Of a DNA stretch of 64,000 bases, positions 58,877 to 64,000 are shown one piece after another. A model generated the notes under the pieces. That model searched no databases. It saw nothing but the letters and a program-made list of their open reading frames with translations, and was not told the origin of the DNA. The number at the start of each line of letters is the position of its first letter. Position 1 is the first letter of the stretch. This stretch comes from Borreliella afzelii. GTDB lineage: Bacteria > Spirochaetota > Spirochaetia > Borreliales > Borreliaceae. A program made the translations under genes and the position numbers. Location: assembly GCF_014202295.1 (NCBI RefSeq), contig NZ_JACHGM010000001.1, forward strand, positions 372,001 to 436,000, given 5' to 3'.

Positions 58877-59099
58877 ACTAAACTTTCCTTCTAAGCTTTA
58901 CATAAATTAATTGAATTATATCACAAAAACAAAACAAACCTTTCCAATAGAAAACCTCTAGTTAAAACAATATATCAATGTTTTAAAGCTACAATAAAGC
59001 ATGTTTTCATCATCACTGTTCAACAACAAAATACACATTACAAGAACATTTGTGGTAAAATTAGTATGCTAAAGATTTTTACTAAATTTGACAAAACAA

Positions 59100-59693
59100 A
59101 TGCATAAAAAGAAGCAAAAAAAAATATATGAAATTCTGGACTTGTTTTTACTTGTCTTTAAAACAACAACTCTTACAATTGGCGGAGGATTAATAATTAT
59201 ATCTGAGCTTAAAAAAATACTTGTTAAAAAAAGAAAAATAATATCAGAAGACGATTTTAACAAAATATTAGCAACATCAAATGTTATTCCTGGGGTTACA
59301 GCAGTTAATTTTGTGTTTCTAATAGGAAGAAAATTTGGGGGTTTCCCATGCGCACTTTTACTCGTTGTTGCCGGAATTTTACCTTCCATTATTGCAATAA
59401 TAATGGTTTTCCTTTACCTGGAATTAATGCCAGATAGCATATATGTTAAAAAATTTCTAGAAGGTGCAAAAATATCTTCAATTATCATAATGTTAACAGT
59501 TGTTTTAAAATTTTCAAAAAAAATGTTAAATAATTCTATAATAAAATGGACAATATGTTTTCTTGTAATTTTTGCAATTTTTAAATTAAAAATAAGAATA
59601 TCATATATTCTGCTAATATTCTTTTTAATATACACATTAAAATATATAACAATAAAAAAAATATTAACTAAACAGAAAAAGGATAGAAGTTGA
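59100..59693 (+). CDS. chrA: ChrA-family transporter, N-terminal-type half
   Basis: A single CHR domain of 197 residues with about five or six membrane helices. The family motifs are LTIGGGLIIISELKK and VIPGVTAVNFVFLIGRKFGG. Together with the next gene it forms the two-part (short-chain) version of the chromate transporter ChrA; the native substrate is unknown. The ATG at 59100 is preferred; a TTG at 59088 is in frame. It starts the plus-strand unit that runs into rpoN. Confidence 0.85.
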   Translation: MHKKKQKKIYEILDLFLLVFKTTTLTIGGGLIIISELKKILVKKRKIISEDDFNKILATSNVIPGVTAVNFVFLIGRKFGGFPCALLLVVAGILPSIIAIIMVFLYLELMPDSIYVKKFLEGAKISSIIIMLTVVLKFSKKMLNNSIIKWTICFLVIFAIFKLKIRISYILLIFFLIYTLKYITIKKILTKQKKDRS

Positions 59694-60223
59694 TTTTAAT
59701 AAATTTATTAATTACATTTTTAAAAATCGGATTATTAAATTTCGGAGGTGGCAATGGAATTGCAGCAATAATAAACAATGAAATAATTAATAATAAACAC
59801 TGGATAACAAAAGAAGAATTTGTCAATATGATTACAATATCAAGAATAACCCCCGGACCTATTGCCACAAACATAGCAACATACGTTGGAATGAAAACTG
59901 CAGGAATTGCGGGGGCAATAATTGCTACTGTAGCATTAATAACAGCTCCAATAATAATAATGGTTATAATCCTCCTAATGCTACACAAAATCGGCTTTTT
60001 AAGTTATTGTCTAGAAAATCTAAAACCTATTATTGTTGCACTGTGGATAATTACAATAATCATTTTGCTCGAAAACACATATTTAAAGATAGAAAACGAC
60101 AAAACAGAGTTTTTAAGAACATTGACTATTGTGGGAATTAATTTTTTTATTTTATTTTTTTATAATAAAATAGGCCCAGCATTAATAATTATACTTAGCG
60201 GTTTTTTTTATACATTAATATAA
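59690..60223 (+). CDS. chrA: ChrA-family transporter, C-terminal-type half
   Basis: A second CHR domain of 177 residues, with LNFGGGNGIAAIINNEI and RITPGPIATNIATYVG, both typical, and several hydrophobic helices. The start is TTG overlapping the stop of the first half (TTGA), so the two are translationally coupled and probably form a heterodimer. Two bases separate it from the rpoN start. Confidence 0.85.
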   Translation: MILINLLITFLKIGLLNFGGGNGIAAIINNEIINNKHWITKEEFVNMITISRITPGPIATNIATYVGMKTAGIAGAIIATVALITAPIIIMVIILLMLHKIGFLSYCLENLKPIIVALWIITIIILLENTYLKIENDKTEFLRTLTIVGINFFILFFYNKIGPALIIILSGFFYTLI

Positions 60224-60225
60224 AT

Positions 60226-61485
60226 ATGATTAAACAAAAATTAAAATTATCTCAAAATTTAAACTCAATTCAAATACAAACAATAAAATTATTAAGTCTT
60301 AATAAAAAAGAATTAACACAGCTTATATTAGAAGAAATCGAAAATAACGAATGCCTAAAAATAGACTCAAATAAAATATTTTTTGAAACATTAAAAACAT
60401 ATAGATTTAAAAAGGTTTTTTATAAAGAAGATAATATGATAAAAAATCAACACGACATAGCGCTTGAAAAAACACAAACAAACATTTCTTTAAAAGAACA
60501 CCTTTTGCTACAATTAAGAATTCAAAGAATAAACGAAGATGAACTTAAAATAGGTGAAATATTAATAAACAATCTAAACAACAAAGGCTTTCATATAATA
60601 AACCCTTACGATCTTTTTAAAAAGGAAGAAAAAGAAAAAGTAAAAAAAATAATTGAACTTATTCAAAAATTTGATCCAATAGGAATTTGTGTCCCCAATA
60701 TAATAGAATCGTTAATTTTACAAGCAAAGCATCATAAATTAGAAAGTAATATTATTAAAATTCTTGAAAAAGCAGAACTTCTTGAAAAAACTCAAGAAAA
60801 GTTAAAAGAAGAGCTCAAAATAAGAAGTAAAGAATTTAACACAGCTTTAGAAATTATAAGACAAAAGCTCAATCCCAACCCAACATTCGAATTTAAAGAC
60901 CCAGAAGACACTAATTTTTATGTTGATCCAGATATATTAATAATAAACCACAATAACAAATTTAAGATTAAAATCAAAGAAGTTAACATCTTTAAAAAAG
61001 AACTTAAAAGAACAAATGAAAATCCTCAAAAACAAAAAAAAGCAAAATGGTTAATCGAATCATTGAGATATAGAGACGAAATACTTGCAAAAATAGGAAT
61101 AGCTATATACACATTGCAAAAAGAATTTTTAAGAAGAGGTTTTAAAAGCTTAAGACCAATGAACTTGAGCATTTTGTCAGAAAAAATCAATGTATCAAAA
61201 TCAACAATATCAAGAGCAATAAAAAATAAATATTTAAAATGCGAATGGGGTACCATATTAATCAAAGAGCTCTTTAGCTCTGTTGGTGGAGCAAAAACAA
61301 ATGAATTTTCAAAATTAAGCATTAAAATAACGGTAAAAAAGTTGCTAGAAGTAAATAAAAAGATGTCAGATAAAGCAATTTCTGCTATACTAAAATCCAA
61401 AGGAATCTCTATTTCTAGAAGAACAGTAAACAAGTATAGAAATGAATTGAAATCTGAGAAAGGAAGAATATATTATGGAACCTAA
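60226..61485 (+). CDS. rpoN: RNA polymerase sigma-54 factor
   Basis: Alternative sigma factor requiring an AAA+ activator; in Borrelia it works with Rrp2 to switch on rpoS in the tick-to-mammal transition. The 419 residues have a Gln/Leu-rich region I (KLKLSQNLNSIQIQTIKLL), a core-binding region (about 100-250), a helix-turn-helix with MNLSILSEKINVSKSTISRAI near 320 and the RpoN box SRRTVNKYR at 397-405. It is about 60 residues shorter than E. coli RpoN, mainly in region II. It lies 2 bp after the ChrA genes and overlaps hpf by 11 bp. Confidence 0.97.
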   Translation: MIKQKLKLSQNLNSIQIQTIKLLSLNKKELTQLILEEIENNECLKIDSNKIFFETLKTYRFKKVFYKEDNMIKNQHDIALEKTQTNISLKEHLLLQLRIQRINEDELKIGEILINNLNNKGFHIINPYDLFKKEEKEKVKKIIELIQKFDPIGICVPNIIESLILQAKHHKLESNIIKILEKAELLEKTQEKLKEELKIRSKEFNTALEIIRQKLNPNPTFEFKDPEDTNFYVDPDILIINHNNKFKIKIKEVNIFKKELKRTNENPQKQKKAKWLIESLRYRDEILAKIGIAIYTLQKEFLRRGFKSLRPMNLSILSEKINVSKSTISRAIKNKYLKCEWGTILIKELFSSVGGAKTNEFSKLSIKITVKKLLEVNKKMSDKAISAILKSKGISISRRTVNKYRNELKSEKGRIYYGT

Positions 61486-61768
61486 AATTCAAGCAGTTAA
61501 TTATAACTTAAATGAGAGTGAAAAAATTTTTATTCTCAAAAAGCTAGAAAAATTTGATACTCATATCAAAAAACATGTAGAAAATTTAAAAATTACAATC
61601 AAAAAAGAACATGAACTTTTTGAATTCGACGCACATATTCACTTTAATTGGGGGAAAAGAATACATATAAGAGAAGCTGGAAAAATACTTCTCACCCTTA
61701 TTGATAGCGCAATAGGAACACTTTACAAAACAGCAACTAAAGAAAAAGAAAAGAAAAACAACAAATAA
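61475..61768 (+). CDS. hpf: Short ribosome hibernation promoting factor (HPF/YfiA family)
   Basis: A 97-residue protein of the short HPF type: IQAVNYNLNESEKIFILKKLEKFDTHIKKH, then KITIKKEHELFEFDAHIHF and REAGKILLTLIDSAIGTL, ending in a Lys-rich tail. HPF inactivates ribosomes under nutrient stress. It overlaps rpoN by 11 bp; the rpoN-hpf pair is widely conserved. The length fits the short form that pairs with RMF in gammaproteobacteria, but no RMF gene is seen here. Confidence 0.92.
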   Translation: MEPKIQAVNYNLNESEKIFILKKLEKFDTHIKKHVENLKITIKKEHELFEFDAHIHFNWGKRIHIREAGKILLTLIDSAIGTLYKTATKEKEKKNNK

Positions 61769-61780
61769 GATAAGTAAAAA

Positions 61781-62056
61781 ATGCAAGAAGTAGAAATTGA
61801 GATAATAAATAAAGATGGGATACATTCAAGATCAGCAAACATCATTTCTGAATTCGCAAATAAACACTCTTCGTGTGATATAAAAATAACAACAAAAGAT
61901 GGTAGAAAAGCTGACGCAAAGTCTACAATCGAAATTATCATATTAGGAATAGTATACAAAGAAAAAGTAAAAATAACTGTCATCGGGAAAAAAGAAAAAC
62001 TGACAATTAAAAATTTGTTAAACTTACTAAAATATAATTTTTTAAAAGAGCTTTAA
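61781..62056 (+). CDS. ptsH: HPr-type phosphocarrier protein (NPr-like)
   Basis: A 91-residue PTS phosphocarrier. The active site reads GIHSRSAN with phospho-acceptor His15 and Arg17, one of the usual GIHARPA positions changed (Pro to Ser at 18). Ser48 in ADAKSTIEI corresponds to regulatory Ser46. It follows hpf by 12 bp and precedes the antiporter-EIIA gene by 2 bp. Borrelia has a separate HPr beside Enzyme I elsewhere, so this copy looks like an NPr serving the linked EIIA domain; that role is inferred. Confidence 0.9.
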   Translation: MQEVEIEIINKDGIHSRSANIISEFANKHSSCDIKITTKDGRKADAKSTIEIIILGIVYKEKVKITVIGKKEKLTIKNLLNLLKYNFLKEL

Positions 62057-62058
62057 AA

Positions 62059-64000
62059 ATGAACAAAAAAATTTTTTACATAACAATATTGCTGCACTTA
62101 CCTAATATTCTATTTTCATACTCAACAAAAGATGACATTGAGACAACAATGTCATCTTTTGTTATGAGTCTGGCAATCATTGTAATCTCATCTATTTCGC
62201 TAGGCAATCTAGTAGCAAAAATAGGGATTCCAAAAGTAATAGGACAAATAACAGCGGGAATCATTCTAAGTCCAAATGCCTTTGGAAAAATTCAAATACC
62301 TTTATTATTCCCATTAGGAATAACTCAAATTGGAGAAAATTATTTAATAAATGAAAAAATATTTGCAATCTCTACCATAGCTTCAATAATATTACTTTTC
62401 ACGGCAGGACTTGAAACTGACTTAAAATTGTTTATCAAATTTTTGCCACGCGGAGGAATTATTGGAATAACAGAAGTTATTGGCACCTTCACAAGTTTTG
62501 TATTAATGGCCAGCATAATTTTTAATGTGCCTCTGATAAGTCCAACCTCGCTTTTTATTGGAATAATTGGAACTCCAACATCAGCAGGAATCGCAGCAAG
62601 TATACTCTCTGCAAAGAAAAAAATGAGCACTTCAGAGGGAGTAACAATAATCTCAACTTCGATTATTGATGATGTGCTTTCAATGCTTATGCTTACAAGT
62701 GTAATAACTATATCAAGATCTATATCAGATCTTGATATAGCAAGCTCAATTAAAAGCATAATTCAAAACATAGTAATTTGGCTATGCTTAACTTTCTTTT
62801 TAATATATATATCAGAGACACTCTCAAGACTGTTGAAAAAATTAAACAGCGTTACATTGGCAACCGTAATAACACTCTCTCTAGCCCTTACTATTTCAAG
62901 TATTTTTCAAAATCTAGGAATGTCTTTTGTTGTTGGAGCTTATGTATTTGGACTTGCTATGTCAAAAACAGATATTGTATATGTAATTCAAGACAAACTA
63001 ACAATCTTTGAAAGATTTTTTATCCCAATCTTTTTTACATCAATTGGACTTATGTCAGATATTAACGAAATACTCTCAAAAGAAGTTCTCATTTTAGGAT
63101 TGGCAATTAGCGCAATAGCAATACTTACTAAAAGCATATTTTGCTTTATTCCAGCACTCTTTTTGGGATTTAATAAACTTGGAGCCTTAAAAATTGCAGT
63201 AGGAATGGTCCCAAGAGGAGAAGTTTCACTTATTATGGCAAATGTAGCATTATCTTCAGGATTTATTAGCCAAAAAATATTTGGAATCATAATAATAATG
63301 GTATTTTTACCAACAATAGTTGCAACACCCATAATAAACTTTTTATTCAAAATAAATAAAAGCGGACTTAAAAAAGAACTCCCAATAGATCAAAATACAC
63401 ACATATGCGTATCATTTGAATATGACAATTTAGCCAAAATTCTTGTGTGGGACTTGAAAAACGAGTTAAGAAAAGAAGGATTTTTCACACAACAGATTAA
63501 AAATGATTCTTCACAATATATTAATGCAAGAAAAAATAATATATCCTTTTCAATAAAAAGAGAAGGCAGTAAAATCACATTCGAATGCCCAAATAATCAC
63601 TTAATTATAATGCAAGACCTTTTTAGAGAAACAATCTTAAACCTAGAAAAAATAACCAAAGAAGTTGAAACAATCTCTTTAAGAACAAAAAAACTAGATT
63701 ACTCAATAAATTATGATAAAATCCTTAGTAATATCAAGCTAAATAAAAGAATAAAAAAGGAAAATATTATTCTAGAATTAAAAGCAAGCAATAAGGCGGA
63801 TGTTCTAAGAGAACTTTTAAGCGTAATAAACATTGAAATTGACAAAGAAAGAATATTCCAAGATTTAATGGAAAGAGAAAAATTAATTACTACCGCACTA
63901 AAAGAAGGTTTTGCTATTCCTCATTTAAAAACAAATTTAATCTCAAAAATACATATTGCAATAGGAATAAGCCATGAAGGGATTGACTTTAATGCTCTTG
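62059..64000 (+). CDS. CPA2-type cation/proton antiporter with C-terminal PTS EIIA domain (3' end outside window)
   Basis: The first 647 residues are visible; the gene continues past the window. A cleavable or first helix (MNKKIFYITILLHLPNILF) is followed by about 12 membrane helices to residue ~430 with the LGNLVAKIGIPKVIGQITAGIILSP opening and the ion-binding pair Asp204-Asp205 (STSIIDDVLSML) of the CPA2 family. After a linker of unknown fold (about 435-565), from residue 568 the sequence is a PTS EIIA type-2 domain: NIILELKASNKADVLRELL, RE-LITTALKEGFAIPH with phospho-acceptor His622. B31 BB0447 is annotated as a Na+/H+ antiporter. It directly follows the HPr gene. Confidence 0.93.
   Translation, partial: MNKKIFYITILLHLPNILFSYSTKDDIETTMSSFVMSLAIIVISSISLGNLVAKIGIPKVIGQITAGIILSPNAFGKIQIPLLFPLGITQIGENYLINEKIFAISTIASIILLFTAGLETDLKLFIKFLPRGGIIGITEVIGTFTSFVLMASIIFNVPLISPTSLFIGIIGTPTSAGIAASILSAKKKMSTSEGVTIISTSIIDDVLSMLMLTSVITISRSISDLDIASSIKSIIQNIVIWLCLTFFLIYISETLSRLLKKLNSVTLATVITLSLALTISSIFQNLGMSFVVGAYVFGLAMSKTDIVYVIQDKLTIFERFFIPIFFTSIGLMSDINEILSKEVLILGLAISAIAILTKSIFCFIPALFLGFNKLGALKIAVGMVPRGEVSLIMANVALSSGFISQKIFGIIIIMVFLPTIVATPIINFLFKINKSGLKKELPIDQNTHICVSFEYDNLAKILVWDLKNELRKEGFFTQQIKNDSSQYINARKNNISFSIKREGSKITFECPNNHLIIMQDLFRETILNLEKITKEVETISLRTKKLDYSINYDKILSNIKLNKRIKKENIILELKASNKADVLRELLSVINIEIDKERIFQDLMEREKLITTALKEGFAIPHLKTNLISKIHIAIGISHEGIDFNAL

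Follow-up and report, generated by a model that had tools for sequence, protein, structure and literature searches.

The stretch of DNA analysed here, called the window, comprises 64,000 nucleotides of the Borreliella afzelii genome (assembly GCF_014202295.1, contig NZ_JACHGM010000001.1, positions 372,001 to 436,000 of the forward strand). At its 3' end, rpoN is followed by hpf, by a gene for an HPr protein (HPr1) of the phosphoenolpyruvate (PEP)-dependent phosphotransferase system (PTS), and by a gene for a CPA2 antiporter carrying a type-2 EIIA domain in the same chain. This order and its tight packing had been noticed in an earlier reading of the letters alone (the sequence-only reading) and are borne out: rpoN and hpf overlap by 11 bp, while gaps of 12 bp and 2 bp separate hpf from HPr1 and HPr1 from the antiporter gene, respectively. 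The genes, domains and key residues are as follows.

60226..61485, + strand: rpoN, sigma-54, 419 aa (Sigma54 AID, CBD and DBD above the Pfam cut-off; TIGR02395 above cut-off)
61475..61768, + strand: hpf, short hibernation-promoting factor, 97 aa (Ribosomal_S30AE, E 3e-7, above cut-off)
61781..62056, + strand: HPr1 (ptsH-1; bb0448 in B. burgdorferi), 91 aa (PTS-HPr, PF00381, E 5.8e-15, above cut-off)
62059..64000, + strand: CPA2/NapA-type antiporter-EIIA fusion, 701 aa (bb0447 in B. burgdorferi), the gene reaching window-equivalent position 64164
62185..63351, + strand: transmembrane exchanger domain of the fusion, residues 43-431 (PF00999, Na_H_Exchanger, E 2.8e-42; NapA 4bwz/5bz3)
62668..62673, + strand: Asp204-Asp205, aligned to NapA Asp156-Asp157
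63130..63132, + strand: Lys358, aligned to NapA Lys305 and invariant in the alignment of 24 sequences
63364..63738, + strand: unnamed middle domain, residues ~436-560 (conserved in the family; AlphaFold2 model of the homologous stretch)
63751..64000, + strand: type-2 EIIA domain, residues 565-699, the last 52 residues lying past the window (PF00359, PTS_EIIA_2, E 3.4e-20)
63922..63924, + strand: codon of His622, the predicted phospho-acceptor (corresponding to PtsN His73; invariance across relatives)

The gene order is identical in every Borreliaceae genome examined, and chance can therefore be excluded. Beyond the edge of the window the antiporter gene is complete in the genome (L004, 6060-8165, 701 aa). 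With a profile built from 24 relatives, NapA structures are recovered (4bwz, E 3e-59), approximately 11 hydrophobic stretches are found, and the transport-site residues D204, D205 and K358 correspond in the alignment to D156, D157 and K305 of NapA. The likeness to the NapA Na+/H+ antiporter (PDB 4bwz, 5bz3) comprises the core fold as well as the Asp-Asp and Lys of the transport site, whereas NapA is devoid of the middle and EIIA domains that the Borreliaceae fusion possesses. By analogy, the NapA-type core predicts an electrogenic cation/proton antiporter. The homologous stretch of the middle domain in the relative L139 was modelled by AlphaFold2 as strand-helix-four strands-helix (pLDDT 91.7); Foldseek returned no match at E<0.001 and no clear PDB fold match, and no Pfam family was found for it.

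The sequence-only reading had allowed for a degenerate EIIA domain downstream of the window, but the domain is complete there and scores above the PF00359 cut-off. His622 sits in an AIPH motif (A-x-P-H) and is invariant in all 36 Borreliaceae species and all 24 aligned sequences. Among the wider relatives the acceptor His is kept in 79 of 80; these and all later counts out of 80 cover the loci listed, a lower bound of the total in at least ten phyla including Spirochaetota. The sole wider relative with Arg in place of the acceptor His (AMPRAK) is found at L130, 5992-8064. The surroundings of His622 are likewise kept (R606, E607, T612, G617, A619, P621), and the homologous domain of L139 is predicted to adopt the PtsN fold (Foldseek, TMt 0.88 to 2a0j). 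Moreover, no other stretch measured in the window's genus is as constrained as the EIIA part, whose ratio of non-synonymous to synonymous changes (dN/dS) is 0.027; the values compared between stretches are pooled pairwise Nei-Gojobori estimates, in which the pairs are not independent. Foldseek relates the EIIA domain by fold to the cytoplasmic domain of band 3, of the SLC4 anion exchangers, which is likewise joined to an exchanger, but these proteins are eukaryotic, have no known phospho-His and possess a different transporter fold, so that the comparison is an analogy only.

The fusion is ancient and not peculiar to Borrelia. It is present in 36 of 36 Borreliaceae species, and full-length fusions recur at approximately 30-37% identity in many families of a phylum sample of 247 genomes. 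At least 80 loci were detected in the genome collection, many of them from metagenome bins, and the comparable fusions among relatives that the sequence-only reading had asked for thus occur in Spirochaetota and at least nine other phyla (Fibrobacterota, Omnitrophota, Fidelibacterota, Lentisphaerota, Kiritimatiellota, Verrucomicrobiota, Planctomycetota, Elusimicrobiota and Delongibacteria). No paper on an antiporter-EIIA fusion was found in a literature search covering mostly open-access papers, and the family apparently is undescribed as a functional class. Variants include a single fusion with two tandem EIIA domains (L061, 832-3498) and a planctomycete fusion of 942 aa with about 200 extra residues ahead of the middle domain (L205, 3293-6121).

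Beyond Borreliaceae, the fusion has no gene for HPr, Enzyme I or Hpf next to it at the loci examined, and no recurrent neighbour was found, including no EIIB or EIIC. The latter result bears on the possibility that the EIIA domain hands its phosphate in trans to the EIIB of a sugar permease, with the antiporter acting only as an anchor. Type-2 EIIA occurs in the genome only as the fusion or in proteins of FruA size, and it is in favour of such a transfer that two FruA-type proteins are present, each having an EIIA of its own, and that the fructose IIA model gives the domain its best NCBIfam score among EIIA models. However, precisely because both FruA-type proteins already have an EIIA, and given the lack of EIIB or EIIC as recurrent neighbours, we consider this explanation highly improbable. 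Three spirochaete loci (L063, L065, L066) also weigh against it and speak for a PTS-controlled antiporter: they have a split version, in which a separate EIIA gene is paired with an adjacent antiporter gene.

Which HPr serves the fused domain is a separate matter. In the sequence-only reading, the neighbouring HPr1 is taken to serve as the dedicated link between Enzyme I and the fused EIIA domain, in a relay that is co-expressed with sigma-54. This proposal can draw on the tight packing, on the adjacency of HPr1 and fusion in 36 of 36 species and on the window's HPr1 itself, which retains His15 and Arg17 as well as the regulatory Ser (position 48), and has Ser in place of Pro18 (motif GIHSR). 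Furthermore, in most species HPr1 and the antiporter gene share 1-4 bp. The HPr1 frame is open in all 36 species, and translational coupling with the antiporter could explain why it persists. However, HPr1 is the least constrained of the stretches measured in the window's genus, with a dN/dS of 0.364 compared to 0.181 for hpf, 0.077 for the antiporter core and 0.039 for the second HPr (HPr2); in the sister genus the corresponding values are 0.222, 0.120, 0.101 and 0.071, with 0.082 for the EIIA part (the labels Lyme group and relapsing-fever genus, used for the two genera, were derived from the grouping). The HPr1 site is lost or weakened in six species, which requires at least four independent changes on the tree: both His15 and Arg17 are lost in G237, G258 has Ser for Arg17 in addition to a 30-residue deletion, and G234, G260, G247 and G264 have Lys or Gly at this position, every lesion resting on one assembly. 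For the pair G237/G247 the HPr1 dN/dS reaches 1.4, calculated from few sites. Thus, catalytic residues of the supposed carrier were lost while His622 remained invariant, and outside Borreliaceae the fusion has no HPr beside it at all.

The properties of HPr2 differ markedly. It is 97-100% identical within the genus, its site is unchanged in the 30 species read, and the single Enzyme I gene (573 aa) follows it directly, distant from the fusion locus. Neither a stand-alone ptsN in the rpoN operon nor a second Enzyme I of the PtsP type was found, so a nitrogen PTS (PTS-Ntr) of the proteobacterial kind is not represented here. In ten fusion-bearing spirochaete genomes (G005, G018, G030, G033, G038, G060, G063, G064, G077, G086) only one HPr exists, and it is encoded on another contig than the fusion. 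Published work on B. burgdorferi points in the same direction: a ptsH-1 mutant showed little effect on mouse infectivity (PMC3485029), which speaks against a dedicated HPr1, and bb0447 was up 8.6-fold in feeding ticks (PMC4985143). Together, both observations fit a needed antiporter and a dispensable HPr1. We conclude that the adjacent HPr1 is probably not a necessary partner of the fused EIIA.

The second part of that proposal, the functional tie to sigma-54, fails on gene loss. The window has an intact rpoN, as have all 18 genomes of its genus, but stops or frameshifts disrupt the gene in five of the 36 Borreliaceae (G076, G248, G249, G106 and G237; L206-L210), all in the sister relapsing-fever genus, and almost nothing of the gene is left in G237. 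On the tree rpoN was lost at least three times, with the hpf and antiporter frames still open; that New World relapsing-fever species have lost rpoN has already been published (PMC4157404; PMC8316131). Since the antiporter is intact in the five genomes with an rpoN pseudogene, co-expression with sigma-54 is not essential, and we rejected it as a functional requirement. Taken together, a dedicated HPr1 carrier under sigma-54 appears distinctly unlikely.

The gene order can be better understood from other spirochaetes. Among 30 loci read across the class Spirochaetia, hpf comes after rpoN with few exceptions, and in those of sufficient length a gene of approximately 330 aa and then an HPr gene come after hpf. 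The former encodes HPr kinase (hprK), identified in three tested cases by both its N- and C-terminal Pfam domains. Of 20 other class members, 19 have HprK, whereas it was found in none of the 36 Borreliaceae; an HprK-controlled HPr is accordingly missing from this family. In the phylogenetic tree HPr1 falls on the side of the rpoN-linked spirochaete HPrs, its own position being weakly supported and on a long branch, whereas HPr2 groups with E. coli HPr (support 100/99). Judged from these comparisons, the Borreliaceae locus is most readily understood as the old rpoN-hpf-hprK-HPr operon minus the kinase, with the fusion gene and aspS alongside. It resembles the spirochaete operon in the order rpoN, hpf, HPr and in an HPr1 nearer to its HPrs than HPr2 is, but differs from it by the missing hprK and by antiporter-EIIA and aspS as the next genes. 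The rpoN operon of the proteobacterial PTS-Ntr (rpoN, yhbH/hpf, ptsN, rapZ, ptsO; PMC13104625) also combines rpoN, hpf, an HPr-type carrier and EIIA in one run; however, Borreliaceae have no stand-alone ptsN or rapZ, and their EIIA is part of a transporter which is placed elsewhere in other spirochaetes. Hence, the locus was not rewired from a proteobacterial order, as the sequence-only reading had it; the class-wide loci led us to reject such an origin, and it was from the ancestral spirochaete order that Borreliaceae deleted hprK. At L248 and other loci of the class, HPr is not the last gene of the ancestral operon: a DUF4390 gene comes next, then genes for an NtrB-like histidine kinase and an NtrC-like sigma-54 activator, and after these lexA. 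In Fidelibacterota (Neomarinimicrobiota), two fusions are directly followed by aspS as in Borreliaceae (L167, 4156-5910; L194, 8128-9930), which could reflect shared inheritance or coincidence.

From the architecture, conservation, selection and operon history, all directly observed, it seems moderately probable that the fusion is a NapA-type Na+ or K+/H+ antiporter set by its own EIIA domain, with HPr2 as phosphate donor and HPr1 as a relict. As far as sequences allow, a PTS-controlled antiporter is the best reading of the protein and intrinsic PTS control of ion exchange its most likely function. Enzyme I would take phosphate from PEP and pass it to the housekeeping HPr2, which in turn would phosphorylate His622. 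The phosphate would stop there, so its presence would report PEP and sugar-uptake status, and the EIIA domain, acting via the middle domain, would raise or lower the exchange. HPr1 would be a dispensable leftover of the ancestral operon whose kinase was lost; a limited transfer of phosphate by it may persist in species with an intact site, that of the window included. Of the nitrogen-PTS-like gating postulated earlier, the covalent EIIA with its invariant His thus stands, and the adjacent HPr as dedicated relay, being under relaxed selection and broken in several species, does not. A precedent exists in E. coli: PtsN in its unphosphorylated form binds to the K+/H+ antiporter YcgO and inhibits it, and the binding is weaker once PtsN is phosphorylated (PMC11808508). 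In both cases an EIIA of the same fold with an acceptor His meets a cation/proton antiporter with extra cytoplasmic domains. However, PtsN and the CPA1 protein YcgO with its RCK/CorC-like domains are separate, while Borreliaceae have a single chain with a NapA-type CPA2 antiporter and an unnamed middle domain; because transporter and extra domains differ, the sign of YcgO control is not transferable.

Several observations weigh against this reading. His15 and Arg17 of HPr1 are kept in 30 of 36 species, including that of the window, and selection on HPr1 is relaxed, not absent, with a dN/dS of about 0.27 among the site-keeping species of the window's genus. With a retained site and some purifying selection, HPr1 may have a role. 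The exact placement of Borreliaceae in the family tree is unsure due to their very long branch. Moreover, the second active-site residue of PtsN, His120, is replaced by Tyr668 in all 36 Borreliaceae, which may alter the kinetics of phosphotransfer, and the domain reaches only 50.4 bits with TIGR01419, the curated PtsN equivalog, compared to a cut-off of 138.7, i.e. it is not PtsN proper. The latter two findings would also suit a domain that is no longer phosphorylated in Borreliaceae and persists as a structural or protein-binding module. Nevertheless, we regard such a module as rather unlikely, given that the acceptor His and its surroundings are kept under the strongest constraint measured and that Tyr occupies the place of His120 in 10 of the 80 wider relatives as well (His in 64).

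If intrinsic PTS control applies, the fusion probably ties salt and pH balance to the energy supply. EIIA control of cation transport is already known from separate proteins in E. coli, and the fusion represents its one-chain version. In a wider sense, a family of PTS-gated NapA-type antiporters could exist over at least ten phyla, in which the covalent EIIA reads PEP/sugar status and alters Na+ or K+/H+ exchange; in Borrelia, Enzyme I and HPr2 would then link the uptake of sugar from a blood meal to the balance of ions and pH, the older HprK/HPr1 branch having decayed. We see the case for this wider picture as evenly balanced. If true, it would make a link between sugar phosphorelay and ion/pH homeostasis directly testable with one protein, in regulator-poor pathogens and at least ten phyla. 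The locus also illustrates that tight gene packing can mislead, as the adjacent HPr1 apparently is a relict whose loss is tolerated and the distant HPr2 is conserved. Hence, the fusion merits attention, the link to the neighbouring HPr and sigma-54 does not.

The packed run extends further in both directions, all genes being arranged head to tail. Downstream, aspS starts 3 bp 3' of the antiporter gene; upstream, a chromate-transporter-like pair adjoins rpoN in all Borreliaceae checked:

59088..59693, + strand: chromate-transporter-like protein, first half (PF02417, E 1.5e-29), probable first gene of the packed run
59690..60223, + strand: chromate-transporter-like protein, second half (PF02417, E 1.4e-36), ending 2 bp 5' of rpoN

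A sequence scan detected no terminator-like sites in the packed run; the number of promoter-like sites in this AT-rich DNA was 42, compared to a mean of 31.6 in shuffled sequences.

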